DNA of 64,000 nucleotides from Paenacidovorax monticola (GTDB lineage Bacteria; Pseudomonadota; Gammaproteobacteria; Burkholderiales; Burkholderiaceae_C), in contig NZ_CP060790.1 in NCBI RefSeq assembly GCF_014489595.1, forward strand, positions 3,906,001 to 3,970,000. The letters are read 5' to 3'. Shown piece after piece: positions 5,109 to 63,798 of this stretch. A program made the translations under genes and the position numbers. Within the stretch, counting starts at the first letter, position 1, and every line of letters begins with the position of its first letter. The notes below the pieces were generated by a model. The model was not told where the DNA came from, ran no database searches, and saw only the letters and a program-made list of their open reading frames with translations.

Positions 5109-5860
5109 TCAGGCCGCGAAGCCGAGCACCACGCGGCGCGACATGGCGCCCTTTTTCTCGATCTTGGTCACGACCACGGCGCCGATCTCGCCCGTGCGCG
5201 CCACATGGGTGCCGCCGCAGGGCTGCAGGTCGATCTGCGCGGCGTCGCCGTCGCTGCCGCCGCCCACGCGCACGGTGCGCACCGTGCCCGTGCCGCGCGG
5301 TGGCTGCACGCTCATGCTCTTGACGAGCTGCGGGTTGGCGTCCAGCTCGGCGTCGCTGATCGCGCCGATGGCCACCGCATGGTCGGCGCCCACGAGCTGG
5401 GCGATGCCGGCCGTGAGCGCGTCCTTGTCGAGCGCGCCGTCCATGTGGAAATCCAGGCGCGCGTACTCGGGCGTGATCGAGCAGCCGTTCACGGGCTGGC
5501 CCACCAGGTGGCACAGCAGGTGCGTGGTGGTGTGAAAGCGCATGAGCCGGTGGCGGCGCTCCCAGTCGATGCGCGCGGTGACCGTATCGCCCACCGCCAG
5601 GCCCGCCTCCTGCCCCGGTGCGGGCCAGTGCACGATGTCGGCCGTCGGCTGGCCCTCGGCGTCCTTGCCCTTGCGCGTGTCGGCAATGGCGAGCGCGCTG
5701 CCGTCGGCGCGCACCAGCGTGCCGGCATCGCCGGCCTGGCCGCCGCCCAGGGGTAGAACACGGTGCGGTCGAGCACCACGCCGCCATCGGGGGTGAGGGC
5801 CGTGACGGTGGCACTGCATTCGCGCAGGTAGCTGTCGGATCGGAAGAGGTCGTGGGTCAT
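5109..5860 (-). CDS. AlaX-type alanyl-tRNA editing protein (one apparent frameshift)
   Basis: A free-standing homologue of the alanyl-tRNA synthetase editing domain, about 250 residues once restored. It deacylates mischarged tRNA(Ala), usually Ser- or Gly-tRNA(Ala), in the cytosol. The zinc site is visible as HTTTH (in RFHTTTHLL) and CGGTH near the C-terminus. The N-terminal part (MTHDLFRSDSYLRECSATV, then VVLDRTVFYP) and the rest (LGGGQAGDAGTLVRADG) are in different frames. One C missing from the GGGG run on the plus strand at 5750-5753 explains this. The first residues match the usual AlaX start, so the ATG at 5860 is secure. Confidence 0.85.
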
Positions 5861-39211: not shown

Positions 39212-40155
39212 TCAGGTCTGCGTGCCGGATGCCTGGGCCAGGATGGCGGGCCGGGCCACGGCCTGCGTGCTCTGGATGGCGCGGCTGAGCTTGGCGGCGT
39301 ACTGCGGGTCGGTGGCGTAGCCGGCCTTCTGCAGCTCGGTGGCATAGGCCAGGGCGGATCCGGTCTTCTCGCGCGCCTTCTCGTAGCGCGGGTTGTCGTT
39401 GATGAGGCGCGCGTAGTCGCGGAACGAGTCCTCGTACGAGTCGTAGGCGCGGAACTTGGCCGTGACCTTGCGCGGCGTGCCGTTCACGTATTCGGTGGTG
39501 GTGACCTCGGCCACCTTGCCGGTCCAGTTCTTGCCGGCCTTGATGCCGAAGAGGTTGAAGGAGTTGCTGCCGTCCTGGCTGCGGATCTCGCCCTTGCCCC
39601 AGCCGGTCTCATGGCCGGCCTGGCCCAGCATGAACGAGGCCGGGATGCCGCTGTCCTGCGCCACGCGCTCGGCCGTGGCGCGGTGGTGCTGCACGAACGC
39701 GTCGCGGCCCTTGGGGCGGGCGCGCTGGCGTCGGCGGGGGCGCTCTTGCGGCGCGTGGCATCGAGGCTCAGCGTGGAGGGAACGGAAAGCTGCACTTCGC
39801 CCCCGGCCTGGGCGCCGCCCATCTGGCGCGCGAGCTGGCGCTGGATGGCCTCGGACAGCCCGCCGGGCTGGCCCGACATCTGCACCGAGAGCTGCTGGTC
39901 GAACAGGTCGGTGGCCAGGTCGCCCTGGGCGCCGTCGAGCAGGCCCGATTTCATCGTCGCCTCGCGCATGCTCTTGATCATCTCGCGCATGAAGAGCGAC
40001 TCGAATTGCTTGGCCGCCTCGCGCGCGGCCTGGGCGCCCTCCTTGCCGGCCTGCACCTTCAGCGCGTTGAGCGAGCGGCTGTCCACCGCCAGCGCGTTGG
40101 AGGCCGCGGCGCTGCTGGCGGAAGGCAACGTGGACAGGGACGGGGAGTAGGCCAT
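39212..40155 (-). CDS. flgJ: Flagellar rod assembly protein/muramidase FlgJ (one apparent frameshift)
   Basis: About 314 residues when restored. The N-terminal rod-binding domain (AAKQFESLFMREMIKSMREA) is followed by a Pro/Ala linker and a C-terminal glucosaminidase domain with the catalytic Glu in GQAGHETGWGKGEI. The frame breaks in the linker at the GGGG run (plus strand 39713-39716). One C restores SAPAPKGRDAFVQHH. FlgJ cuts peptidoglycan so the rod can pass. It starts one base after the flgI stop. Confidence 0.92.
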
Positions 40156-40156
40156 G

Positions 40157-41289
40157 TCAGATCACCTCCAGCTCGGCATTGAGCGCGCCCGCGGCCTTGA
40201 TGGCCTGCAGGATGGCCAGCAGGTCCTGCGGCGTGGCGCCCAGCGTGTTGAGCGCGCGCACCACGTCGGCCAGCTGCGGCGAGGGCGGCAGGTTCATGAT
40301 GACGCCCGGCTCCTGCTTGACCTGGATGTCGCTCTTTTGCGCCACCACGGTCTGGCCCTGCGAGAAAGGCGCGGGCTGGCTGATGACGGGCGTGCTGCTG
40401 ATCGTGATGGAAAGGTTGCCGTGCGCGATGGCGCAGGGTCCCAGCGTGACGGCCTGATTCAGCACGATGGAGCCCGTGCGCGCATTGATGACCACCTTGG
40501 CCGCCGGCGTGGAGTCGGGCAGGGCCAGCTCCTCCAGTTCGGCGATGAAGTTCACGCGCCCGCCCGGGTCCTGGGGTGCGCGCACCTGCACCGTGCGGCC
40601 GTCGAGTGCCGTGGCCGTGCCCTGGCCGGAGCGGGCGTTGATGGCGTTGGCCACCTTGCGCGCCGTCTGGAAGTCGGAGGCGTTGAGCCCCAGCGTGATG
40701 GTGTCGCCGTCGTGCAGCGGCGTGGGCACGGCGCGTTCGACCTGCGCACCCTCGGGCACGCGGCCCGCGCTCAGGTGGTTGATCTGCACCTTGCTGCCGC
40801 CGGCCGACGCGCCCGCGCCGCCGACGACGACGTTGCCCTGGGCCAGCGCGTAGATCTCGCCGTCGGCGCCGCGCAGCGGCGTGGCGATCAGCGTGCCGCC
40901 CTTGAGCGACTTGGCGTTGCCCATCGAGGAAACGTTCACGTCGATGAGCTGCCCGGGCTGTGCGAAGGCCGGCAGCTGGGCCGTGACGATCACGGTGGCC
41001 ACGTTCTTGAGCTGCAGCTGCGACACCGTGCCGGGCGGCAGGGTGATGCCCATCTGCTGCATGTAGTTCGACAGCGCCTGCGTGGTGATGGGCATCTGGG
41101 TGGTCTGGTCCCCGTGCCGTCCAGCCCCACGACCAGGCCGTAGCCCGTGAGCTGGTTGCTGCGCACGCCCTGCACGGCCGCGACTTCCTTGATGCGCAGG
41201 GCCTGGGCGGGCAGGGCGGCGCACAGCAGCGCCAGCGCGGCGACCAGCCAGGGCAGGCGCCGAAGGGGCAGGGCGGACAGGGTATTCAT
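40157..41289 (-). CDS. flgI: Flagellar P-ring protein FlgI (one apparent frameshift)
   Basis: About 377 residues when restored. The signal peptide ([20 protein letters not shown]) is followed by [20 protein letters not shown], the start of mature FlgI, which forms the P-ring in the peptidoglycan layer. The frame breaks at the CCCC run 41110-41113. One G restores [20 protein letters not shown], a highly conserved family stretch. The remainder is intact to the C-terminus. Confidence 0.94.
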
Positions 41290-41386
41290 GGCCCGATTGT
41301 GGGTCGCGCCGCGCGCAGGGAATGGGGGGAAAAGACACCGAAATCGCCGCTATTCGGGCGATCTGGCTGCGGCCGGAATGCAGCGC

Positions 41387-41413
41387 AGGCAGCTATCCAA
41401 AAGATAGCTGCCT
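41387..41413. repeat. Perfect 11-bp hairpin between flgH and flgI
   Basis: AGGCAGCTATC-CAAAA-GATAGCTGCCT, a perfect stem. It lies in the 149-base gap between the flgH stop and the flgI start. No T-run follows on the minus strand. It belongs to the AGCTATC motif family seen elsewhere in the window. It may modulate flgIJKL expression by partial termination or protect the flgH transcript end. Confidence 0.6.
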
Positions 41414-41438
41414 GAGCAGTCTTGACAGGCGCCGGAGG

Positions 41439-42118
41439 CTAGAACGGCGTGAAGGAGTTGAAGGCCCGGGCGAGCCAGCCCATGGCCTGGGCCTCGCTTT
41501 GCGCGCCGCGCCCGCGCGACTCGATGCGCACGTTCGCCACCTGGGTGGAGCTGACGATGCTGCCCGGCAGCATGGAGCGCGGGTCGATGGTGCCCGAGAA
41601 GCGCAGCACGTCCACGTTCTGGTTCACGCCGATCTGCTTCTCGCCGGCCACCACCAGGTGGCCGTTGGGCAGCACGTCGACCACGGTGGCCGTGATCGAT
41701 CCCGTGAAGGTGTTGGTGCTTTCCGTGCCGCCCTTGCCCGCGAACGAGTTCTCGGAGCTGGCTCCCAGCGTGCTCTTGCCCGAGAGGTTGCCCGAGATCA
41801 GCGGCAGCGCGGTGATGCTGCCGCCGGCCTTGGAGCTGCGGTCCACGGTGGAGGTGGATTTCTGGCTGGCCGAGATGTTCTCGACGATCTGGATCGTGAC
41901 CACATCGCCCACCAGGCGCGCGCGCCGGTCTTCGAAGGCGGGGCGGTAGCTGGCCGTGTGGAACAGGCTGCCCGTGGCCGGGCCGCTGGCGCGCGGCATG
42001 GCGGCGATGGACGGCGGCGCGGTCGGCAGCACGTCCACGGGCGGTGGCGGCGACAGCGGGGCGCAGCCCACGGCGAGCAGGGCGAGGGCCAGGGGCCGAG
42101 CAGGCGCAGTGCGGTCAT
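41439..42118 (-). CDS. flgH: Flagellar L-ring lipoprotein FlgH (one apparent frameshift)
   Basis: About 226 residues when restored. The N-terminus then reads MTALRLLGPLALALLAVGCA, a lipoprotein signal with the lipobox LAVGC, and the body follows (PATGSLFHTASYRPAFEDRR, then ARLVGDVVTIQIVENISASQ). The break is at the GGGG run 42092-42095. FlgH forms the outer-membrane L-ring around the rod. The C-terminal part (GTIDPRSMLPGSIVSSTQVA) is conserved. Confidence 0.93.
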
Positions 42119-42129
42119 GGCGGGGCTCC

Positions 42130-42912
42130 TCACAACTGGGCCAGCTTGGACAGCATCTGGTCCGAGGTCTGGATGGCCTTGGAATTCATTTCGTAGGCGC
42201 GCTGGGTCTGGATCATGCTGACCAGCTCTTCCACCACGTTCACGTTCGAGGTCTCCAGGAAGCCCTGCTTGATGGTGCCCAGCCCGTTGGTGCCGGGCGT
42301 GCCCTGCTGGGGCTGGCCCGATGCGGCCGATTCCTTGTACATGTTCTGCCCCACGGGCTCCAGGCCGGCGGAGTTGATGAAATTGGCCATGGCCAGGTTG
42401 CCAACCTGCTGCGGGGCGGTGTTGCCCGGAAGGAGGGCCGACACCACGCCGTCGGCGCTGATGCTCACGCTCGTTGCGTTGGCGGGGATGGTGACGCCGT
42501 TGGCGACCGGCAGGCCGCTCGAGGTGACGAGCCGGCCCTGCGCATCGACCTGGAACGAGCCGTCGCGCGTGTAGCCGATGGTGCCGTCGGGCAGGGTCAC
42601 CTCGAAGAAGCCGTTGCCGTTGATGGCCACGTCCAGGCTGTTGTTCGACTGCTGCAGGCTGCCCTGCGTGAAGTTGCGGCTGGTGGCCACGGTGCGCACG
42701 CCCAGGCCCAGGTGCAGGCCCGTGGGCAGCTGGTTCTGCTCGGTGGTCTGCGAACCGACCTGGCGCAGGTTCTGGTAGATCAGGTCTTCGAACACCGCGT
42801 TGTTGCGCTTGTAGCCGGTGGTGGAGACGTTGGCCAGGTTGTGCGAGATCACGTCCAGCTGGGTTTGCTGGGCACTCATGCCGGTCTTGGCGATCCACAG
42901 GGAGTTGATCAT
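42130..42912 (-). CDS. flgG: Flagellar distal rod protein FlgG
   Basis: 260 residues. It starts [20 protein letters not shown] then [17 protein letters not shown], and ends [20 protein letters not shown] then [16 protein letters not shown], the classical FlgG ends that pack as paired helices in the distal rod. The length is the family norm and the frame is intact. It lies 14 bases after flgF and 11 bases before flgH. Confidence 0.96.
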
Positions 42913-42926
42913 GGTGCTTCCTTCGT

Positions 42927-43667
42927 TCAGCCGTTCAGGTTCAGCAGCTGGCTGGCGGTTTTGTCGTTGGTTTCGGCGGTCTGCAGCATGCGCAGCTGGG
43001 CTTCGAACTGGCGCGCGGCGGCGATCATGCCGACCATGCTCTCGACCGGGTTCACGTTCGAGCCCTCGAGCGCGCCCGCGAGCAGGCGGGCGTTGGCGTC
43101 GTTCGGCATGGGGTCGCCCGATGCGGTGCGGAACAGCCCGTCGTCGCCGCGGCGCAGCGGATCGTCCGGCGTGGGCGTGGCGAGCTTGACGCGGCCCACG
43201 GCCGCGGCGGGCTGGCCGGGCACCTTGGAGGTGATGGTGCCGTCCGATCCCAGCGAGATGTCGGCTCCCTGCTGCACGTCGATGGGGCCGCCGCCGTCCG
43301 ACAGCAGCGCCAGCCCCGTGCTCGTGACGAGCTGGCCCGTGGGCGAGATCTGGAACGAGCCTGCGCGCGTGTAGGCCTCGGTGCCGTCAAGCCCCTGCAC
43401 TGCGAACCAGGCATTGCCCGAGGCCATGGCGTCGAGGTTGCGGCCCGTGCGCTGCACGGGGCCGGGCGTCTCCACATGGCCCGAGGTGGCTTCGAGCGCG
43501 AACACGCGCGTGGTCGAGCCGTCGCCCTGGATGGGCACCGAGCGGAAGGTGGACATCTCGGCGCGAAAGCCGTTGGTGGAGGCATTGGCCAGGTTGTTGG
43601 ACAGCACGGCTTGCCGGTGCGAGGCGGCGTTGGCGCCCGTCATGGCGGTGTAGATGATGCGGTCCAT
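42927..43667 (-). CDS. flgF: Flagellar proximal rod protein FlgF
   Basis: 246 residues, starting [20 protein letters not shown] then [19 protein letters not shown] and ending [20 protein letters not shown]. This shorter rod protein joins the proximal to the distal rod. The family motif NLAN is present at the N-terminal helix. The frame is intact. It lies 31 bases after flgE. Confidence 0.95.
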
Positions 43668-43698
43668 CGCGTGGCTCCTGGTTCAGCGCGTGGCGGTG

Positions 43699-44976
43699 TC
43701 AGCGCAGGTTGACCAGGGTGGACATCACCTGGTCCTGCGTCTTGATGGTCTGCGCGTTGGCCTGGTAGGCGCGTTGCGCGGTCATCATGTTCACGAGTTC
43801 GGCCGTGAGGTCCACGTTCGAGTCCTCCAGCGCGCCCGAGCGCAGCGCGCCGAAGGCGCCGTCGGTGGGGCGCCCATGGTGGGCTGGCCCGAGGCGTAGG
43901 TCTCGGTCCACATGTTGTTGCCGATGTCGGCCAGGCCCTGTGTGTTGCGGAAACTCGCCAGCGCGATCTGCCCCTCGGCGCGGGTCACGCCGTTGGAGTA
44001 GCTCGTCATGATCGTGCCGTCGTTGCCGATGTTGATGCCCGTGAGCTGGCCGGCCGTGTAGCCGTCCTGCGTGAGTTCCGACACGGCGAATTTCGTGCCG
44101 AACTGGGTCACGCCGTCGAGGTCGATCTGCACGGTGTAGGCCGGCAGGTTGTTCGGGTTCGGCGTGGGGGGCGAGATGGTGACGGGCATCTGGAAGCCTG
44201 TGGCCGGCGGCGTGGCTGCGGGGCCGATGATCTTGCCGTTGTTGTCGAACGTGATCTGACCAATGGGCGCGGCCACGACGGGCGGCGTTGCCGTGGGATC
44301 GTCGAGCTGGGTGTACACGTCCCAGGTGTTGGCCGTCGCGGTCTTCTGGAAGTAGAGGTTCACGGTGGTGGCCACCCCTGGCTGTCGTACACGTTGATCG
44401 AGGTGCCGTAGGTCGAACGCGGCGTGGCCGGAATGGGGGGGTGGCGGCGGGGTTGCCGGCCGCGTCGGGCGCGCGCGCGTCGAGGTTGAACGAGGCCGTG
44501 ATGGTCTTGGTCTGCTTGGCCGGAATCGGGGCACCGGTGGGGAAGACCAGCGGCGCGGGGCTGCTGGAGGTGCGCTTGCCCGTGGCGGGGTCGACGGGGT
44601 AGCCCATGACCTTGCCGTTGCTGTTGGTGATCACGTTGCCCTGGTTGTCGAGCTTGAAATTGCCCGAGCGGGTATAGGCATAGCTGCCGTCGGGCTGCAG
44701 GATCTTGAAGAAGCCGTTGCCGTTGATGGCCACGTCCATGTTGTTGCCCGTGACGGTGATGTTGCCCTGGGTGAACTGCTGGGCCACCGCGTCCACCTGC
44801 ACGCCAATGCCTGCATTGCCGGTGCTGGACGTGCCGATGGCCGTCGCCACCATCTCGGCGAACTCGGTGCGCGATGCCTTGAAGCCCACGGTGCCCGAGT
44901 TGGCGATGTTGTGGCCGATCACGTCCAGGTTCTTGCTGGCGGCGTTCAGGCCCGAGAGGCCTTGCTGGAAGCTCAT
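43699..44976 (-). CDS. flgE: Flagellar hook protein FlgE (three apparent frameshifts)
   Basis: About 426 residues when restored. The start (SFQQGLSGLNAASKNLDVIG) and the end (NVDLTAELVNMMTAQRAYQA, then TIKTQDQVMSTLVNLR) are typical of the hook subunit. The middle is broken three times, at the plus-strand runs 44435-44441 (G7), 44375-44378 (C4) and 43867-43870 (G4). Adding one base at each gives a continuous protein (PPIPATPRSTYGTSINVYDS; SQGVATTVNLYFQKT; MGAPTDGAFGALRSG). Three losses in one essential gene, all in G/C runs, argue for sequencing error rather than decay. Confidence 0.93.
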   Translation of the reverse strand: MSFQQGLSGLNAASKNLDVIGHNIANSGTVGFKASRTEFAEMVATAIGTSSTGNAGIGVQVDAVAQQFTQGNITVTGNNMDVAINGNGFFKILQPDGSYAYTRSGNFKLDNQGNVITNSNGKVMGYPVDPATGKRTSSSPAPLVFPTGAPIPAKQTKTITASFNLDARAPDAAGNPAATPPFRPRRVRPTAPRSTCTTARGGHHREPLLPEDRDGQHLGRVHPARRSHGNAARRGRAHWSDHVRQQRQDHRPRSHAAGHRLPDARHHLAPHAEPEQPAGLHRADRPRRRDPVRHEIRRVGTHAGRLHGRPAHGHQHRQRRHDHDELLQRRDPRRGADRAGEFPQHTGPGRHRQQHVDRDLRLGPAHHGRPTDGAFGALRSGALEDSNVDLTAELVNMMTAQRAYQANAQTIKTQDQVMSTLVNLR

Positions 44977-45012
44977 GGTTTTCTCCTTGTCGGTGAATCT
45001 GCGGTGGATCGG

Positions 45013-45675
45013 TCAGAGCACGGCGCGGATGTCGCCGTACTTCACGGTGCTGCCGGTGTCGAGGTCGAGCATGAGCGCGCCCGCGTTCGAGCCCGTGCCC
45101 GTGACCTTGGACTGCATGAGGTTCGTGGCCGTGACAGCGCCGTCCTTGTTCGTGGCCGTCACGCGGAACTTGAGGGCGCCCTTGTCGCCCGTGTACTTGC
45201 TCGCATCCCACGTGAAGTCGTGGCGGCCCTTCGTCTGCGCGCCCATGTCCACCGTGCCGACCACCTGCCCGCCCGGGGTCACGACCTCGACCTTGACGGC
45301 CGTGGCCGCGTTGCCGAGATCGAAATAGCCCTTGCCGGTGTTGTCGGTATAGGTCAGCTTGGAGCCTTCGGAGAGCACTGTGCGGCCGATCATGGTCGTG
45401 CCCTGCAGCGTCTGCATGGCCGCGAACTGCTCGGCCATGGTCTGCATGGTGAGGTTCAGCGTCTGGATGCCCGTCACCGTGTTGATCTGGGCCATCTGCG
45501 ACGTCATCTGCGCGTTGTCCATCGGGTTCATCGGGTCCTGGTTGCTGAGCTGCGCGACGAGCAGCTTCAGGAACCGGTCCTGCGCGGCGTTGGGGTTGGT
45601 GGCCGAGTCGGGCTTGGTCGACGTCGTGGTCTTGCCCGCGTCGAGCGCGCTGGTGTCGATGGGGTTGATGAACAT
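45013..45675 (-). CDS. flgD: Flagellar hook cap protein FlgD
   Basis: 220 residues. The N-terminal export and capping region (DRFLKLLVAQLSNQDPMNPM, then DNAQMTSQMAQINTVTGIQ) is highly conserved. A C-terminal FlgD-Ig/Tudor-like beta domain follows (VKVEVVTPGGQVVGTVDMG). It caps the growing hook and is discarded when the hook is complete. It lies 36 bases upstream of flgE and 16 downstream of flgC, in operon order. Confidence 0.94.
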   Translation of the reverse strand: MFINPIDTSALDAGKTTTSTKPDSATNPNAAQDRFLKLLVAQLSNQDPMNPMDNAQMTSQMAQINTVTGIQTLNLTMQTMAEQFAAMQTLQGTTMIGRTVLSEGSKLTYTDNTGKGYFDLGNAATAVKVEVVTPGGQVVGTVDMGAQTKGRHDFTWDASKYTGDKGALKFRVTATNKDGAVTATNLMQSKVTGTGSNAGALMLDLDTGSTVKYGDIRAVL

Positions 45676-45691
45676 GGAGAGGCTCCCGGGC

Positions 45692-46096
45692 TCACTGGCC
45701 CATCTGCAGGGTCTTGAGCAGCAGCGTCTTGGCCGTATTCATGACCTCGACGTTGTTCTGGTACGAGCGCGAGGCGGAGATCATGTTGACCATCTCCTCC
45801 ACCGCGTTGACGTTCGAGTGGTTGACGTAGCCCTCGGCGTCGGCCGACGGGTGGCTGGGGTCGTGCACGCGCCGGCCGGGCGTCTGGCTCTCCTGGATGG
45901 CGCTCACGCGCACGCCGGCCGAGCTGTCGGCGCCCATGGGCGCGGTCTGGAACACCACCTGGCGGGCCTTGTAGGCCTGGCCATCGGGCGCGGCCACGGC
46001 ATCGACGTTGGCCAGGTTGCTGGCCACCACGTTGAGGCGCTGCGACTGCGCGCTGATGGCGCTGCCGGAGACGCTGAAGATCGAGAACATGGACAT
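45692..46096 (-). CDS. flgC: Flagellar proximal rod protein FlgC
   Basis: 134 residues: MSMFSIFSVSGSAISAQSQR then LNVVASNLANVDAVAAPDG at the start, and EGYVNHSNVNAVEEMVNMIS then ASRSYQNNVEVMNTAKTLL at the end. Both terminal helices of a rod protein are present. The ATG at 46096 is preferred over one two codons later. The frame is intact. It lies 28 bases after flgB. Confidence 0.95.
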   Translation of the reverse strand: MSMFSIFSVSGSAISAQSQRLNVVASNLANVDAVAAPDGQAYKARQVVFQTAPMGADSSAGVRVSAIQESQTPGRRVHDPSHPSADAEGYVNHSNVNAVEEMVNMISASRSYQNNVEVMNTAKTLLLKTLQMGQ

Positions 46097-46124
46097 GGCG
46101 GGACTCGCTTCCTTGCTGGCGGGC

Positions 46125-55053: not shown

Positions 55054-55680
55054 TCAGAACCCCAGGCTGGCGAGCAGATCGTCCACCTGCGACTGGTTGG
55101 TCACCACGTCGGGGGTGCTGTCCGGGTCCACGACCGGGCCGGCCAGGTGCTCGCGCGGCACCTGCGGCGCCGGGGCGGGAGGCTGGGTGTTGGGCGGCGC
55201 CGTCTGGATGAGCAGCTGCACGAGCTGCTCCTCGATGGTGGCGGCCAGGTTCACCACGCGCGCGATCACCTGCCCCGTCAGGTCGTGGAAGTCCTGGGCC
55301 ATCATGATCTCGGTGAGGTGCACGTCGGCTTCCTTGGTGACGCGCTCCACATCGGTCAGGTAGTTGTAGATCTCGCCCTTGGCCACGGCCGCGACCGGGT
55401 CCTTCACGAGCGAGCTGGTCACGCGCCGGGTTTCGGCGGCGATGTGGTCGTGCTGGGCCTTCGCCTGCTCGACGCGCGTGAGCACCTTCTCGGCGGCCTC
55501 GCCAGTCAGGCGGGCAATGTACGACAGGCGGCTCTGGGCGTCGGGCAGCTCGCCCATGGTCCCGCGCAGCTTGTCGGCGTAGCCCAGCTCGTTGAGCGAA
55601 TCGTGCAGCTGGCGCGTCAGCTGGCCGATCTTGTGGTGTACGTCGCTGGGATCCGAAGGGGACGTCTCCGTGGTATCCAT
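55054..55680 (-). CDS. cheZ: Protein phosphatase CheZ
   Basis: 208 residues, mainly a long helical hairpin. The active-site helix is visible as TEIMMAQDFHDLTGQVIARV, with the catalytic Gln in DLTGQ. The C-terminal CheY-binding peptide is TNQSQVDDLLASLGF, the family end. It dephosphorylates CheY-P and so terminates the chemotactic signal. It follows cheY after four bases. Confidence 0.95.
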   Translation of the reverse strand: MDTTETSPSDPSDVHHKIGQLTRQLHDSLNELGYADKLRGTMGELPDAQSRLSYIARLTGEAAEKVLTRVEQAKAQHDHIAAETRRVTSSLVKDPVAAVAKGEIYNYLTDVERVTKEADVHLTEIMMAQDFHDLTGQVIARVVNLAATIEEQLVQLLIQTAPPNTQPPAPAPQVPREHLAGPVVDPDSTPDVVTNQSQVDDLLASLGF

Positions 55681-55684
55681 GGCG

Positions 55685-56068
55685 TCACAACCCCATTTTC
55701 TTGAGAATCAGCGTGACTTTCTCTTCGAGGGTAGCCTTGGTGAACGGCTTGACGATGTAGCCGGCCGCGCCATTCTGCGCGGCCATCACGATGTCTTCCT
55801 TGCGGGCTTCGGCCGTCACCATCAGCACGGGCAGGTGCTTGAGCTTGTCGTCCTTCTTGATCTCGGAGAGCAGCTGGAAGCCGTTCATGTTGGGCATGTT
55901 GATGTCCGTCACCACGAAATCAAACTTGCTGTTGCGCAGCTTGTGCAGGGCGGCGACGCCATCCTCGGCTTCATCGGCGTCCGTGAAGCCGCTTTCCTTG
56001 AGCAGGTTGCGCACGATGCGCCGCATGGTGGAGAAGTCGTCAACGATCAAGAAACGAAGGTCAGCCAC
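55685..56068 (-). CDS. cheY: Chemotaxis response regulator CheY
   Basis: 127 residues from a GTG start. The phosphorylated Asp is D55 in [12 protein letters not shown]; the acidic pair is D10-D11 in [14 protein letters not shown]; the switch Thr and Lys are in [11 protein letters not shown] and [16 protein letters not shown] single receiver domain with no output domain, as expected for the protein that binds the flagellar switch. It lies 65 bases after motB, with an AT-rich spacer containing GCTATCAAT. Confidence 0.96.
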
Positions 56069-56133
56069 GTGGGACCCTTTCGGTCGGTATTTGCTATCAA
56101 TATTCTCATGGTCACCACCGTTGTGACAAGTCG

Positions 56134-57071
56134 TTACGGTTGGGCGCCAGATGGGGGATTGTCCTGCTTTTCAGGGCGCAATTGCGCGGCAGGGACCAAG
56201 GGGGTGTTTTTACCGAGGAGGCGCTCTTCGGCCTCCCGGGTCAGGACCGTGATGGTAATGCGCCGGTTGACGGGGGCGCGCGGGGCCGAGGGCTCCAGCA
56301 GGTCGCTGGCGGCCAGGCCCACCACGCGGGCCAGTTTGTCGTCGGGCATGCCGGCGGCCACGAGTTCGCGGCGCGAGGCGTTGGCCCGGTCGGCGGACAG
56401 CTCCCAGTTGCTGTAGCCCCGGTCGCCATTGCCGTAGGGCGCGGCGTCGGTGTGCCCCGCCAGGCTGATGCGGTTCTCCACCCCGCCCAGGGCGGTGCCG
56501 ATGTCGCGCAGGATGTCGCGCATGTAGGGTTTGACCAGCGCGCTGCCGCTGTCGAACATGGGGCGGTTCTGGTCGTCCACGATCTGGATCTGCAGGCCGT
56601 CGGGCGTCACGTCGATGCGGATCTGGGAGCGGTACTCGTTGAGCTTGGGGTTTTCCGTGATCATCGCATCGATCTTGGCCTGCAGCGCCTTGATGCGTGC
56701 GGCGTCCTGGCGGGCCCGCTCGGCGCGGGCGTTGTCGATGTTCATGCGCCGCTCGGAGTTCTCGTCGGCGTCCGAGCGCCGCACCTGGCCATGCACCTTG
56801 GACAGGTCGTTGCCCCCGCCCGGGATCACGCTGGAACTGTTGCCGGCACCGTCGCCCCCGGCCATGGCCACCTTGAGCGGCGACGAGAAGTAGGCCGCGA
56901 TGCCCTGCAGTTCCCCCTTGGCCGTGGAGCCCAGCAGCCACATGAGCAGGAAGAAGGCCATCATGGCCGTCACGAAGTCGGCGTAGGCGATCTTCCAGGC
57001 GCCGCCATGGGGCGCGTGCCCCCCTTCTTGACGCGCTTGATGATGATGGGCTGGAGTTTCTTCTCGGCCAT
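56134..57071 (-). CDS. motB: Flagellar stator protein MotB (one apparent frameshift)
   Basis: About 312 residues when restored. It has one membrane segment with the proton-carrying Asp D32 in [20 protein letters not shown], and a C-terminal OmpA-like peptidoglycan-binding domain ([20 protein letters not shown], then [19 protein letters not shown]). The start is [16 protein letters not shown] at 57071. The break is at the C6 run 57019-57024; one more G restores [19 protein letters not shown]. It pairs with MotA, which ends 15 bases before. Confidence 0.94.
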
Positions 57072-57086
57072 GGCGTTCCAGCGGGG

Positions 57087-57945
57087 TTACTTCTTGCCCT
57101 TCACGTGGCTCTCCAGCTCGGTGAAGGACGGGCGGTCCGTCGAGAACAGCACCTTGCGACCGAATTCGATGGCCGTGGCCGGGTTGTAGCCCTGCATGCT
57201 GGCGAGCAGGGTGATCTTGATGCACTCCAGCTCCTTGGCCGCGTCCTCCGCCTTCTGCTCCAGCAGGCCCGCCAGGGGCTCGACGGCGCCGTAGGCCAGC
57301 AGAATGCCCAGGAAGGTCCCCACCAGCGCCGAGGCGATCATCCCCCCAGCACCGACGGCGGCTGCCCCACGGAGCCCATGGTGTTCACCACGCCCAGCAC
57401 GGCGGCCACGATACCGAAGGCGGGCAGGGCGCCCGCCAGGCGCGTGAGCGCGGCCACGGGGGCATGGGCCTCCTGGTGGTGGGTCTCGATTTCGCTGTCC
57501 ATGAGCGCCTCGATCTCGTGGGCGTTCAGGTTGCCCGACACCATCATGCGCAGGTAGTCGGTGGTGAATTCGACCACGTGGTGGTCGGTGCCCACGGCGG
57601 GGTATTTGGTGAAGATGGGGGACTCGTGCGGGGCCTCGACATCCTTCTCGATGGCCATGAGGCCCTCCTTGCGGGCCTTCTGGAGGATGTCGTACAGCAT
57701 GGCCATGAGCTCCATGTAACGCGCCTTGGTGTACTTGGAGCCCTTGAAGACCTGGGGCAGCACCGCGAACGTCGCCTTGAGCACCTTCGTCTGATTGGTC
57801 ACGATGAACGAGCCCAGGGCGGCCCCCCGATGGTGATCATTTCGAAGGGCAGGGCCTCCAGCAGAACCTTGATGTTGCCACCATGGGCCACGAACACGCC
57901 GAAGACGCATCCGAAGGTAATGACGTAACCGATGATGACGAACAT
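57087..57945 (-). CDS. motA: Flagellar stator protein MotA (two apparent frameshifts)
   Basis: About 286 residues when restored. It starts MFVIIGYVITFGCVFGVFVA. The frame breaks at the C6 runs 57823-57828 (restored as EMITIGGAALGSFIV) and 57342-57347 (restored as PPSVLGGMIASALVGTF). Four membrane segments and the charged cytoplasmic loop (KGSKYTKARYMELMAMLYDI) are in place. Together with MotB it forms the proton channel that drives rotation. It opens the motAB-cheYZ run. Confidence 0.94.
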
Positions 57946-57996
57946 GCTGGGGCGATGGGGCTGTTAGGGCGGATTGTGTCGGCGGTTGTTATAAAT

Positions 57997-58023
57997 GTAT
58001 CGGATTGCCGTGGCCAAAAATGA
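57997..58023 (-). promoter_or_regulatory. Weak sigma-28-like promoter upstream of motA
   Basis: On the minus strand TCATTTTT-N11-TCCGATAC has exact spacing and matches the sigma-28 consensus at 5 of 8 and 6 of 8 positions. It lies 52 bases before the motA start. Motility operons are usually FliA-dependent, which supports it, but the match is not strong. Confidence 0.4.
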
Positions 58024-58067
58024 AGTGCAGCTGCTCTGTTGCCAGGGGCTGCAGGGGCGGTCATTGC

Positions 58068-58092
58068 AAAAAAAAGAGGCCAAATTGGCCTC
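58068..58092 (-). terminator. Rho-independent terminator of fliC1
   Basis: On the minus strand GAGGCC-AATTT-GGCCTC (the arms may extend by two A-T pairs) is followed by eight T residues, 62 bases after the fliC1 stop codon. This is a classical terminator and separates fliC1 from motA. Next to it, GCGCCA at 58110 pairs with TGGCGC at 58136 as a second, larger hairpin. Confidence 0.85.
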
Positions 58093-58154
58093 CAGTGCTT
58101 GCGAAGATTGCGCCATAAGCTCCTTTTTTCATAGCTGGCGCGCCATGCTCCGGG

Positions 58155-59717
58155 TCAACCCTTGAGCAGGGCCAGCACGCCTTGCGGAATCTGGTTGGCC
58201 TGGGCGACCATGGCGGTGCCGGCCTGCTGCAGGATCTGGGTGCGCGACAGGTTGGCGGTTTCGGCCGCGAAGTCGGCATCCTGGATGCGGCTGCGCGAGG
58301 CGGACATGTTCTCCGAGGACACGTTCAGGTTGGCGATGGCGGTTTCGAAGCGCGACTGCAGGGCGCCGTAGTTGGCGCGCTGGCCGCTGATGGCCGCAAT
58401 GGCGGAGTCCACGATGGCCAGAGTGCGGTTGGCGCCGTCCACGGTGCTCACGTCCATGTTCTGCACGGTCTGGATCTGGCTGCCCGCAGCGGTCGCGATG
58501 TTCAAAAAGCCTGTTCCAGCCGCAGCGCCGTTTGTATCCACGGCGCTGAAAGACTTGGACGAATCCAGCGTGAGCTGGCCCGTGACCACCAGATCGTTGG
58601 TACCGAAGGCGCCCGCGCCGTTCTGGCCGGCAATGGCGGCGCCCGCACCGCCCACCAGGGCCCCGCCCGAGGGGTCGGTCACGGTGATGGTGTTGGCGGC
58701 CACCGAGTCGTTCAGCAGGTGGATGTCGTTGCCCGAGGCGTTCGTCAGGATCAGGCCTGTGCCCGTGTCGTTCACGCGGGCCGTCACGCCGGTCTTGGCC
58801 GATGCGTCGTTGAAAGCCTTGGCGGCATCGCCCAGGCCATCGTTGTTGAGCGCGCTCACCGTGAACGAAATCGTCACGGCCTGGCCTGTGCCATTGTCCG
58901 ATGCCAGCTTGAGGGTGTACGAACTGCCAGCCGTGAGGCCGGACAGCCCCAATTCGGTACGTGCCGTGGCGTTCACGCCGGTCTTTTCGGTCTGGGCGTT
59001 GACCAGTGCTGCCAGATCCTTGGCGGAGGCACCTGCGGCATAGGGGATGGCCTGGCTGCCGTAGGCGCCGTTGACCGTCAGAGTGCCCGCGGCGATGTTC
59101 GACGAGCCCACCTTGCCCTGTGCCACGATGGCATTGGCCGTGCTGCCCAGCGTCAGGTCGCCGGCGCCGCCCGTGGTCGTGGCTGCCTTGCCGCCGATGC
59201 GGTAGTTGCCATACGCATTGGTGCTGAAGTTGGACGAGGTGGCCGTGATGGTCTGGTTGGCATTGGCGCCCACCTGGAAGGCGGCGCTCGTGAAGGAGCC
59301 GTCCAGCAGCTTGCGGCCGTTGAATTCGGTGGTCTTGGCGATGCGGTCCAGTTCGGCGGTGAGCTGGTTCACTTCGGCGTTCAGGGCCTGGCGGTCCGAG
59401 GCGCTGTTGGTGGCGTTGGCCGACTGCACCGCCAGTTCACGCACGCGCTGCAGGATGTTGCCGGCGCCTGCCAGCGCACCTTCGGCCACCTGGGCCAGCG
59501 AGATGCCGTCGTTGGCGTTGCGCGCGGCCTGGGTCATGCCGCGGATTTGTGTAGTAAATCGCTCGGAAATGGCCAGGCCGGCGGCGTCGTCCTTGGCGCT
59601 GTTGATGCGCAGGCCCGACGACAGGCGCTGGATGGAGGTGTTCAGCGAGGACTGGCTGATGCCCAGGTTGCGCTGGGCGGTCAGCGAAGCGATGTTGGTG
59701 TTGATTGTCGATGCCAT
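58155..59717 (-). CDS. fliC: Flagellin FliC, copy 1
   Basis: 520 residues. The conserved N-terminal D0/D1 helices ([20 protein letters not shown], then [20 protein letters not shown]) and C-terminal helices ([20 protein letters not shown]) flank a Gly/Ala/Thr-rich central domain. It is the paralogue of the divergent flagellin at 60051. The segment for codons 87-204 is identical in DNA. After it the two differ ([20 protein letters not shown] here). A ribosome-binding site (CAGGAG) lies before the ATG. No convincing sigma-28 promoter is seen upstream. Confidence 0.95.
59106..59458 (-). repeat. 353-bp inverted repeat, left arm (inside fliC1)
   Basis: Compared base by base, this arm is the exact reverse complement of 60310-60662, over 353 bases without a mismatch. 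Both arms start at nucleotide 260 of their flagellin gene, so recombination between them would keep the reading frame. 851 bases separate the arms. Confidence 0.97.
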
Positions 59718-60050
59718 TGCGGGACTCCTGCAGGGCTGAAAACAAACATTTCTGCCGGTTCAAGCGCTACCCCTCCGGCGGACTTTTTGGGAACGATGGA
59801 GGGATTGTGGGGAGCCAAGGGGGAGGGGGTGCCCGGATAAGACGCCAAAAAACCCTTCAATCCGTGCGTTTGTGTCTAAAGTTTTCCAAGCACGACCCGA
59901 AAACACTTTCAACGGGCCGTTTGAAACAAGAAGTGACGACCCGCCGTTCAACAGAAGGCCTGCCTGGGCGCTGTGAACCCTGTGGCCAGAAGGTTCTGGG
60001 CCCAGTTGGCGGCAACGCCATATCTAGTCAGTTCTTTTAGGAGATTTGTA
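59718..60050. other. fliC1-fliC2 divergent intergenic region
   Basis: 333 bases without a gene. It holds one clear sigma-28 promoter pointing to fliC2 and ribosome-binding sites at both ends (CAGGAG for fliC1, AGGAGA for fliC2). Toward fliC1 only a poor candidate was found (CATCGTTC-N11-GCCGGAGG). The middle has G-rich runs around 59815. Confidence 0.7.
59877..59903 (+). promoter_or_regulatory. Sigma-28 (FliA) promoter of fliC2
   Basis: TAAAGTTT-N11-CCCGAAAA matches the consensus TAAAGTTT-N11-GCCGATAA with a perfect -35 part, exact spacing, and six of eight bases in the -10 part. It gives a 5' leader of about 140 bases before the fliC2 start, ending in the ribosome-binding site AGGAGA. Confidence 0.85.
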
Positions 60051-61616
60051 ATGGCTTCCACCATCAACACCAACGTCGCCTCGTTGACCGCCCAGCGCAA
60101 CCTGGGCATCAGCCAGACCTCGCTGAACACCTCCATCCAGCGCCTGTCGTCGGGCCTGCGCATCAACAGCGCCAAGGACGACGCTGCCGGCCTGGCCATT
60201 TCCGAGCGTTTCACGAGCCAGATCCGCGGCCTGAACCAGGCGGTGCGCAATGCCAACGACGGTGTTTCGCTGGCCCAGACGGCCGAAGGCGCGCTCAAGA
60301 GCTCGGGCGACATCCTGCAGCGCGTGCGTGAACTGGCGGTGCAGTCGGCCAACGCCACCAACAGCGCCTCGGACCGCCAGGCCCTGAACGCCGAAGTGAA
60401 CCAGCTCACCGCCGAACTGGACCGCATCGCCAAGACCACCGAATTCAACGGCCGCAAGCTGCTGGACGGCTCCTTCACGAGCGCCGCCTTCCAGGTGGGC
60501 GCCAATGCCAACCAGACCATCACGGCCACCTCGTCCAACTTCAGCACCAATGCGTATGGCAACTACCGCATCGGCGGCAAGGCAGCCACGACCACGGGCG
60601 GCGCCGGCGACCTGACGCTGGGCAGCACGGCCAATGCCATCGTGGCACAGGGCAAGGTGGGCAGCTCGGCCATCACGGGCGGTGACATCACCATCAATGG
60701 CGCCTATGGCTCCGCTACGGTGGCCATCGGTGTGGGCGATTCCGCCAAGACGGCTGCGGCTGCGGTGAACGCCCAGACCGAAAAGACCGGCGTGAGCGCC
60801 ACGGCACGTACCGAAGTGGGCCTGTCCGGCCTCACGGCTGGCAGCTCCTACACCCTCAAGCTGGCATCGGACAATGCCACGGGTCAGGCTGTCACCATCT
60901 CGTTCACGGTGGGCGCCACGCTCAACGCCGACGGTCTGAGCGATGCCGCCAAGGCTTTCAACGACGCATCGGCCAAGACCGGTGTGACGGCCCGCGTGAA
61001 CGACACGGGCACGGGCCTCGTCCTGACGAACGCCTCGGGCAACGACATCCACCTGCTGAACGACTCGGTGGCCGCCAACACGATCAACGTGACGGATGCG
61101 GCTGGTGGCGCCCTGGTGGGCGGTGCGGGTGCCGCCATTGCCGGCCAGGCCGGTGCGGGCGCTTTCGGTACCAACGATCTGGTGGTCACGGGCCAGCTCA
61201 CGCTGGATTCGTCCAAGTCGTTCAGTGCGGTGGATGCCGGTGGCGCTGCCGCAGGTGGCGGCTTCCTGAACGTGGCTACCTCGGCAGCCAGCCAGATGCA
61301 GACCGTGCAGAACATGGACGTGAGCACCGTGGACGGCGCCAACCGCACGCTGGCCATCGTGGATGCCGCTCTGTCGGCCATCAGCGGCCAGCGCGCCAGC
61401 TACGGCGCCCTGCAGTCGCGCTTTGAAACCACGGTGAACAACCTGCAAAGCACGTCGGAAAACATGTCCGCCTCGCGCAGCCGCATCCAGGACGCCGACT
61501 TCGCGGCCGAAACCGCCAACCTGTCGCGCGCCCAGATCCTGCAGCAGGCCGGCACCGCCATGGTCGCCCAGGCCAACCAGCTGCCCCAGGGTGTGCTGGC
61601 CCTGCTGCGCGGCTAA
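60051..61616 (+). CDS. fliC: Flagellin FliC, copy 2
   Basis: 521 residues. The termini match copy 1 closely; N-terminal differences include [12 protein letters not shown] and [12 protein letters not shown]. The central domain differs mainly after codon 204 ([20 protein letters not shown]). The C-terminal helices are complete. It is preceded by a strong sigma-28 promoter and followed by a terminator-like hairpin, then fliD. It is therefore the copy most likely expressed in the orientation shown. ATG at 60051 has a good AGGAGA site. Confidence 0.95.
60310..60662 (+). repeat. 353-bp inverted repeat, right arm (inside fliC2)
   Basis: Exact reverse complement of 59106-59458. It covers codons 87-204 of fliC2, from the D1 region into the start of the central domain. 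The flanking codons differ between the two genes, so the identity is sharply bounded, which is the mark of gene conversion or recurrent recombination. Confidence 0.97.
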
Positions 61617-61666
61617 GGCCAATCAGGGACTGGACTCCTGAGGGGTTCAGCCCCATGATCCATGAG

Positions 61667-61694
61667 GGCGGTGGCGATGGAGATCGCCGCCGCC
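61667..61694 (+). terminator. Strong hairpin after fliC2
   Basis: GGCGGTGGCGAT-GGAG-ATCGCCGCCGCC, a 12-bp stem with one G-T pair, 50 bases after the fliC2 stop. It is followed by TTGTCGCTT, not a full T-run. It probably ends or attenuates the flagellin transcript before fliD. Confidence 0.65.
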
Positions 61695-61835
61695 TTGTCG
61701 CTTGGCAAAGTCTGGGTGACCTTGTAGATTGGCGGTGTTCTGGGGTGCTTTTTGGCGCGATGTCCCCGGCCCCCGGCTTGGATAATCCTCGTTGATTGAT
61801 ACCAACCCAACAACGCGCTTTCCAGGAGGTGGAAC

Positions 61836-63283
61836 ATGGCTAGCTTTTCGTCGATAGGTCTTGGCCTGGGAGGTGGCGTGGATGTCAACAAGCTCATCCA
61901 GTCCTCCGTCGATGCCGTGCGGATTCCCATCACCAAGGCCAACGGCCTGAGCGATCAGGGCAAGCTGGTCCAGGCGAAGATCTCCACGTTCGGGCAGATC
62001 AAGTCGCTGGTGTCCACCCTGTCGGATGCAGTGAGCAAGCTCACGAGCGTGACCGGCTGGAATGCGGTGAGCGCCACGTCGTCGAATACGGCCGCCGTGA
62101 CGGCTTCGGCCACGGGGGCACGGTTGCCACGTCATTCAGTGTGGAAGTGCAGGGGCTGGCGAAAGCCCAGAACACCACGTCCGCTGCCATGCTTCCCGTC
62201 GGGGGGGTGATCGGCGCGGGTACGTTGCGCCTGGAGTCGGGCAAGTGGAGCGGAACGCCCGCCACTTTCAACCCGAGCGCGGCCAACCCGGTGGACATCA
62301 CCATCAGCGCCACCGACAAGCTGTCGGACATTGCGGGAAAGATCAACGGCGCCAAGGCCGGAGTCACGGCCACGATTCTGTCCGATGCCTCCGGCGAGCG
62401 TTTGCTGCTGCGCAGCAAGACCACGGGGGAGGATGCCGGTTTCCGCGTTTCCGTGACGGACACGGACGGCAACAACACGGACGCCGCAGGACTGTCGCGC
62501 CTGGTGTCGGGGGCAACCACCGACTATGCGCTCAATGCCAAGGCCACAGTGAACGGCATTGCCGTGACTTCCGCATCGAATACCTTCACGAATACGGTGG
62601 CTGGCGTGACGTTCAATGCCCTGCAGGTGACGACGGCGCCCGTGGAAATCTCGGTGGCCAAAGACACGACGGCAGTCAAGAAGAACATCGATGATTTCGT
62701 CAAGGCCTACAACGCCGTGAACCAGGCGCTCAACGAGATCACGAGATACGACAAAGAAACCAAGACCGCCGGGCTGTTGCAGGGCGATGCGACCGCGGTG
62801 GCGCTGCAGAACACGCTGCGCTCGGCGCTGCGCTCGGTGGCCTCGGGCTCGGATGGGGCCTTTCGCTCGCTGTCGGATGTGGGCGTCGTGTCGGCAGGCG
62901 GCCTGGGGCAGCTGGCTCCCACGGGCGATCTGTCGGTGGACACGACCAAGCTCAACAAGGCGCTGGAGAACCCCGATGCCATGAAGGCATTTTTCCGTGG
63001 GGCGGATGGTGGCAGCGTGAGCGATGGCGTGGCGGGCAAGATCAAGGCGGTGACCGACAAGTTGCTGGCCTCGGACGGCTATTTCGCCAGCAAGGACAAG
63101 CAGCTGCAGAACGCGCTGAAGCTGAACACCAAGGAAATCCAGCGCATCGAGGACCGTGCCGACAGCACGGAAACCAGCCTCAAGGCGCGCTACACGGCGC
63201 TGGACTCCCAGATGAGCAAGCTCAATGCGCTCAACGCCTACATTGCGCAGCAGGTGACGACCTGGAACAAGTCCTCGGGCTGA
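61836..63283 (+). CDS. fliD: Flagellar filament cap protein FliD (one apparent frameshift)
   Basis: About 482 residues when restored. The start MASFSSIGLGLGGGVDVNKL is conserved. The frame breaks at the G5 run 62114-62118; one more G restores TASATGGTVATSFSVEVQGL. The remainder includes the conserved C-terminal part (YTALDSQMSKLNALNAYIAQ, ending QVTTWNKSSG). FliD forms the cap under which flagellin polymerises. A good ribosome-binding site (AGGAGG) precedes the ATG. No clear promoter was recognised just upstream. Confidence 0.94.
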
Positions 63284-63285
63284 CC

Positions 63286-63312
63286 TTCAGTTTTCGGGCC
63301 CCGTGCCGATAA
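63286..63312 (+). promoter_or_regulatory. Sigma-28 (FliA) promoter of fliST
   Basis: TTCAGTTT-N11-GCCGATAA: the -10 part is a perfect match and the -35 part matches at six of eight positions, with exact spacing. It lies between the fliD stop and the fliS start (63343), so fliS and fliT can be transcribed apart from fliD. Confidence 0.8.
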
Positions 63313-63342
63313 TTGAAGTAGTCAATCCAAGGAACACACGCC

Positions 63343-63798
63343 ATGTTCAGTCCCTTCAACCCCCGTTCCGCATCCGCCTACCAGCGGATCAATGTGGAAA
63401 CCAGCATGCACACGATCGACCAGCATCAGCTGGTCAGTCTGCTGTATGAGGGTGTGCTGAGTTCCATTGCCACGGCGCGCGGCGCCATGGCGCGTGGTGA
63501 CGTGCTGACCAAATGCAACAGCATCTCCAAGGCGATCCGCATTCTGGAAGAGGGGCTCAGCACGGCGCTGGACCGGGAGGAGGGCGGCGTCCTGGCGGAG
63601 AACCTCGGGGCGCTTTACGACTATTGCCTGCACCGCCTGATCCTGGCCAATGCCCGCAACGACGACGCCCTGATGGAGGAGGTCATGCGGCTGATCGAGC
63701 CTATCGCCCAAGGCTGGAACGAAATCAAGAAAACCGGTGCCCTCGCTGCCGCCGTGGCGGAGCGCCCCGAATCGCGCCCCGTGATGGCGGAGGCCTGA
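63343..63798 (+). CDS. fliS: Flagellin export chaperone FliS
   Basis: 151 residues, mostly helical. It starts MFSPFNPRSASAYQRINVET, followed by DQHQLVSLLYEGVLSSIATA, the family's flagellin-binding region. The end is a flexible Glu/Ala-rich tail. It binds the C-terminal helix of flagellin in the cytosol and prevents premature polymerisation. It follows its own sigma-28 promoter and precedes fliT by four bases. Confidence 0.94.
   Translation: MFSPFNPRSASAYQRINVETSMHTIDQHQLVSLLYEGVLSSIATARGAMARGDVLTKCNSISKAIRILEEGLSTALDREEGGVLAENLGALYDYCLHRLILANARNDDALMEEVMRLIEPIAQGWNEIKKTGALAAAVAERPESRPVMAEA

Follow-up and report, generated by a model that had tools for sequence, protein, structure and literature searches.

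The sap locus of Campylobacter fetus is an inversion switch that carries a promoter together with 5′ coding sequence, and in Campylobacter jejuni the flagellin genes flaA and flaB are arranged in tandem. Recombination between the sigma-28- and sigma-54-controlled flagellin genes of C. jejuni (flaA/flaB) has been reported, with flaB being under sigma-54 control (PMC5126078). In the Alteromonadales, flagellin (fla) genes are under long-lasting concerted evolution, with gene conversion seen as the likely cause (PMC6053082). In the filament of Shewanella putrefaciens, FlaA forms the cell-proximal part and FlaB the main part, because only flaB requires FliA (PMC6299084). In Mycoplasma pulmonis, vsa is an inversion switch in which site-specific recombination moves a promoter and 5′ coding sequence (PMC4534519). 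Here, we analyzed two head-to-head flagellin genes, fliC1 and fliC2, in a 64,000-nucleotide (nt) stretch of Paenacidovorax monticola DNA (contig NZ_CP060790.1, positions 3,906,001 to 3,970,000; from here on, the window). The two genes share an exact inverted repeat of 353 bp, and comparisons of sequences suggest, at a probability of roughly 0.78, that this identity was left by a recent gene conversion between two ancient flagellin paralogues that differ in their control.

The identical block and its flanks

FliC1 and FliC2 are 88% identical over their full length, and Pfam Flagellin_N and Flagellin_C were found in both proteins. In a codon alignment of the two genes, the longest exact run covers nt 260 to 612 of each gene, and the preliminary description of this DNA had correctly placed it as 353 identical inverted bases starting at nt 260, with 851 bp between the copies and with matching reading frames across the arms. 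We counted 33 mismatches in nt 1 to 259 (87.3% identity), none in the block, and 150 in the remaining 951 nt (84.2%). In 10,000 shuffles of this string of matches and mismatches, the longest run averaged 46 nt and reached a maximum of 116 nt; chance is not an explanation for the identity. Longer inverted arms, of which the block is the perfectly matching core, extend beyond it (672 nt at 92%, 688 nt at 89%, and 176 nt at 86%), and the two genes share a separate identical run of 61 nt at nt 971 to 1031.

As a close relative for comparison, we used Acidovorax delafieldii 2AN (L034). Over nt 262 to 612, the window genes differ from each other at 0 of 351 positions and from the A. delafieldii genes at 25 to 33 of 351, with 20 to 22 synonymous codon differences. 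Over codons 1 to 87, fliC1 differs from A. delafieldii fliC1 by 26 synonymous codons and 1 nonsynonymous codon and from its own neighbor fliC2 by 15 synonymous and 12 nonsynonymous codons. DNA trees of three segments (codons 1 to 87, 88 to 204, and 401 to 521; 178 rows) gave a matching picture. For codons 88 to 204, the row closest to window fliC1 is window fliC2, while for codons 1 to 87 and 401 to 521, fliC1 is closest by path to A. delafieldii fliC1; the C segment of fliC2 is closest to its A. delafieldii orthologue, and its N segment is closest to other flagellin genes on the fliD side. The homogenized middle between orthologue-like flanks gives good support to gene conversion, which the preliminary description had offered as its fallback reading.

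The comparison was extended to 146 loci including the window, which yielded 89 distinct head-to-head pairs, 18 duplicates, and 39 loci without a usable pair. These loci came from a named genome collection (the best 80 of 499 confirmed loci) and from a subset of 399 of the family's genomes (314 with a match) together with 47 genomes of one genus, from which 65 stretches were selected on similarity and gene arrangement, independently of promoter direction; searches of two genera of smaller size, with 7 and 4 genomes, added no further stretches. The species of the window is represented by one genome. We refer to the gene on the fliD side of a pair as the D gene and to that on the motA/motB side as the M gene. 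Sides were assigned by fliD/fliS in 88 pairs and by the mot genes in one (L044), and in the 29 pairs where both sides could be called, there were zero conflicts.

Exact runs of at least 100 bp are present in 23 of the 89 pairs at varied positions. The A. delafieldii pair has exact runs of 157 + 82 nt, likewise from nt 260 onward, and in this pair and in L056 the common run starts precisely at that nucleotide. Gene type was misassigned from the middle segment in 24/178 genes, from the N end in 11/178, and from the C end in 4/178, and M/D labels change 24, 51, and 26 times on the N, middle, and C trees, respectively (counts without a shuffled baseline). A cluster of residues (65, 77, 83 to 85, and 87) that ends at codon 87 tends to separate the gene types, and selection on such type-specific residues may set the edge of the block; residue 121, which lies within the block, also separates the types in relatives. 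Separately, an Acidovorax metagenome-assembled genome (MAG; L065) has an exact common run of 799 nt (nt 83 to 881 of both flagellin genes), longer than that of the window and due either to conversion or to collapse in the MAG.

Table 1. Positions of the flagellin genes, the repeat, and associated features in the window
Feature	Positions	Strand	Remarks
cheZ, cheY-like response regulator gene, motB, motA (-), fliC1 (-), fliC2 (+), fliD and fliS (+)	55054-63798		
fliC1, flagellin gene (M gene, motA/motB/cheY/cheZ side)	58155-59717	-	520 amino acids; Pfam Flagellin_N/C/IN
fliC2, flagellin gene (D gene, fliD side)	60051-61616	+	521 amino acids; Pfam match
353-bp exact block, fliC1 copy	59106-59458	-	gene nt 260-612
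353-bp exact block, fliC2 copy	60310-60662	+	gene nt 260-612
851-bp spacer between the arms	59459-60309		5′ ends of both genes plus the intergenic region
Sigma-28-like motif TAAAGTTT-N11-CCCGAAAA toward fliC2	59877-59903	+	score 14/16; orientation with respect to fliD shared by relatives
Conserved stretch upstream of fliC1	59748-59792	-	near-identical in L034, L115, and L116

Promoter direction and competing explanations

Using consensus strings that we took to be those of sigma-28 promoters, we found that the motif toward fliC2 scores 14/16, whereas the best site toward fliC1 scores only 10/16, in agreement with the earlier claim that only fliC2 has a strong sigma-28 promoter. In 445 single-base shuffles of the intergenic regions (5 for each of the 89), the top score was 13 and was reached once. 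A sigma-70 scan of positions 57900 to 61900 detected no site for fliC1. With 0.5 sites expected, the scan gave one, which is located downstream of fliC2 at 61702. The conserved stretch upstream of fliC1 (Table 1) is a possible control element of this gene. In addition, TTATC and A(C/G)AAT elements that read toward fliC1 are located in the intergenic region at 59804 to 59841 and are kept in 10/10 aligned pairs.

The preliminary description had proposed a possible in-frame inversion switch that needs no dedicated invertase. As a phase switch for flagellin, the 851-bp segment would be flipped frequently by homologous recombination at the two arms, which would join the sigma-28 promoter and the first 86 codons of fliC2 to the rest of fliC1. 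The geometry is right for this, since inverted homologous arms flank the promoter and the 5′ coding parts, which are in frame. Because an inversion would reverse the intergenic promoter relative to fliD, promoter direction tests the switch. The motif score favors the fliD-side gene in 88 of the 89 pairs, with one tie (L059) and none reversed, and the strict motif points toward the fliD-side gene in 85 pairs and in the opposite direction in 0; the 4 pairs that lack it are all from Marinobacter (L099, L103, L106, and L108). All 23 pairs with exact runs of at least 100 bp have the usual direction. An inverted arrangement was seen in none of the 89 pairs. The N-end and C-end types match gene position in 163/178 genes, and reciprocal exchange of N-terminal types, the expected trace of an inversion, was observed in 0/89 pairs, although five M genes have N ends that lean toward the D type (L065, L076, L086, L124, and L127). 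Moreover, fliC1 is under purifying selection like fliC2: over codons 1 to 87 and 401 to 521, we counted 57 synonymous and 5 nonsynonymous codon differences between fliC1 and A. delafieldii fliC1, and 44 and 10, respectively, for fliC2. What does speak for the switch are proteins with unlike ends. A search with the FliC1 protein gave 116 full-length and 4 partial proteins among the best 120 of 609 matches, and 34 of the 116 have unlike N and C types; in 14 of these 34, an M-type N end with a score of −0.5 or −0.4, i.e., undecided, is combined with a D-type C end. By score, three (P0013, P0036, and P0062) clearly combine a D-type N end with an M-type C end, and eight lean the opposite way, with an N score of −3.5 or lower and a D-leaning C end (P0014, P0037, P0045, P0098, P0102, P0104, P0108, and P0113). 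The pair from which P0014 and P0045 apparently originate (L033/L113, a Xylophilus MAG) has the usual promoter direction. In a search for N-terminal pieces (best 120 of 416), each of eight inspected proteins departs from both window genes at 5 to 79 residues, so none of them belongs with certainty to the species of the window. Altogether, we consider a phase switch by inversion improbable, and a change of the flagellum surface by such a flip unlikely at this locus; a rare inversion may nonetheless occur in the species of the window, for which one genome was compared.

Two explanations invoke neither inversion nor conversion. If a consensus or polishing step had copied the sequence of one gene onto the other within the repeat, the identity would be an assembly artefact, and indel errors or real frame breaks are indeed present in 4/35 and 4/36 of the genes aligned to two relatives, including two breaks in motA and one in fliD. 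However, the genome is a single 4.68-Mb contig, similar exact runs are found in other assemblies such as that of A. delafieldii, and two partial proteins very close to the window genes (P0018 and P0077) both start inside the block, as expected for contigs broken at a real repeat. An artefact is therefore very improbable. Strong constraint alone, acting on the conserved N-terminal helices of flagellin, could be suspected since part of the Flagellin_N domain (residues 5 to 143) is encoded there, but the block extends beyond this domain, to codon 204, and synonymous codons vary freely between species there; the 20 to 22 synonymous codon differences from A. delafieldii, with none between the window genes, exclude constraint as the sole cause, and we assign it next to no probability.

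Several points weigh against gene conversion between differently controlled paralogues. Conversion was read from patterns rather than watched, and inversion appears to find its best evidence in the three clear proteins with a D-type N end and an M-type C end, together with the eight that lean the opposite way. The mean mutual information of residues with gene type is no lower in the middle (0.042 for codons 1 to 86 and 0.054 for codons 87 to 204) and did not set the ends apart from it, and at fourfold sites pooled over 52 pairs, paralogue identity exceeds that of the nearest orthologue in only 2 of 13 bins (31 to 60 and 88 to 115), in a noisy comparison whose choice of nearest relatives was odd for the window (L129 and L142). 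Two of the 89 pairs nearly duplicate others (L064/L172 and L135/L167). Finally, the M gene does not appear to be free of sigma-28 sites everywhere: in eight pairs (L090, L092, L094, L096 to L098, L145, and L147), a second, weaker sigma-28-like site precedes the M gene by 167 nt. Sigma-28 may thus drive both flagellins in these pairs, and the split in control may vary by lineage.

A putative mosaic flagellin and a possible role of the pair

P0018 is fliC1-type at 46 of 49 informative sites. In P0077, residues 207 to 324 have the fliC1 type at 24 of 25 informative sites, and residues 346 to 520 have the fliC2 type at 24 of 24. Because P0018 also has the fliC2 type at sites 256, 346, and 450, these sites are of little information, which places the switch point of P0077 between 324 and 350. 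P0077 thus resembles a mosaic of the two flagellins, joined in frame, from a very close relative. Conversion would explain it. So could an assembly chimera at the 61-nt identical run or a crossover inversion, as a crossover in the interval from codon 324 to codon 350 is also expected to give an M-type center with a D-type end. Barring such a chimera, in-frame mosaics may arise naturally. It is a tentative and rather doubtful proposal that the pair acts as a mosaic generator, in which conversion would place the central domain of fliC1, in frame, into the sigma-28-driven fliC2, as P0077 seems to exemplify in a near relative, promoter-swapping inversion would be rarer, and the filament surface would change between sibling strains without an invertase.

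Two differently regulated flagellins that are kept partly alike by recurrent conversion appear to be the best reading of the locus. RecA-type recombination would copy the sequence of one flagellin gene onto the other without a net crossover, or crossover products would be lost, and selection would keep the gene ends distinct. fliC2 is probably the main filament gene; transcribed with sigma-28, it would supply the bulk of the filament, with a smaller part coming from fliC1 under another promoter, as for FlaB and FlaA in S. putrefaciens. Based on its conserved upstream stretch and similar purifying selection, fliC1 is probably not a silent store but an expressed gene that is of use to the cell.

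In the genome, a protein search identified these two flagellin genes plus one weak match (24% identity over part of the query), and a search of a plasmid collection gave three records with short matches only (75 to 78% identity). The gene that we take to be cheY was labeled on the basis of its Response_reg match and position. motA (57090 to 57948) is broken across three frames and fliD (61812 to 63283) across two, and both are open in relatives. These breaks represent sequencing indels or real decay of motility, and if they are real, the strain may be nonmotile. Elsewhere in the window, more frame changes relative to two relatives were observed at 5115 to 5860 and 39251 to 46109 (near 5.75, 39.7, 41.1, and 43.9 to 44.5 kb), perhaps as assembly-wide indel errors.

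Relation to known systems

In the openly licensed literature, as covered by titles and the openings of abstracts, no inversion or conversion of head-to-head flagellin genes was described for the family of the window. The 89 pairs form a natural series of head-to-head paralogues in which inverted homology is available, no inversion was seen, and conversion looks frequent, and they make it testable how conversion is balanced against crossover where repeats are inverted. They also call for caution in that inverted identity inside paralogues is by itself no evidence of a phase switch.

As in sap of C. fetus and in vsa of M. pulmonis (PMC4534519), a promoter and a 5′ coding part are placed such that inversion would join them to another gene; alternative arrangements are known for those switches, whereas the 89 pairs have one orientation. 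Like the locus, S. putrefaciens has two flagellins; one of them has a strong FliA-dependent promoter there, and the other is FliA independent (PMC6299084). The window genes are head-to-head, and a similar split in control, suggested by the motifs, and a similar filament arrangement are putative for them. As in C. jejuni, there are two flagellin paralogues, one of them sigma-28 controlled, which for fliC2 is a prediction from its motif; recombination between the two has been reported for C. jejuni, where flaB is under sigma-54 control (PMC5126078). A crossover in the head-to-head window pair would invert, and not delete as between the tandem genes of C. jejuni. In the Alteromonadales, fla paralogues are homogenized within genomes, as here, but the window pair belongs to another lineage and is homogenized in parts only, with both ends paralogue specific (PMC6053082). 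The locus thus fits a known kind, the concerted evolution of flagellin genes, here in a head-to-head layout.
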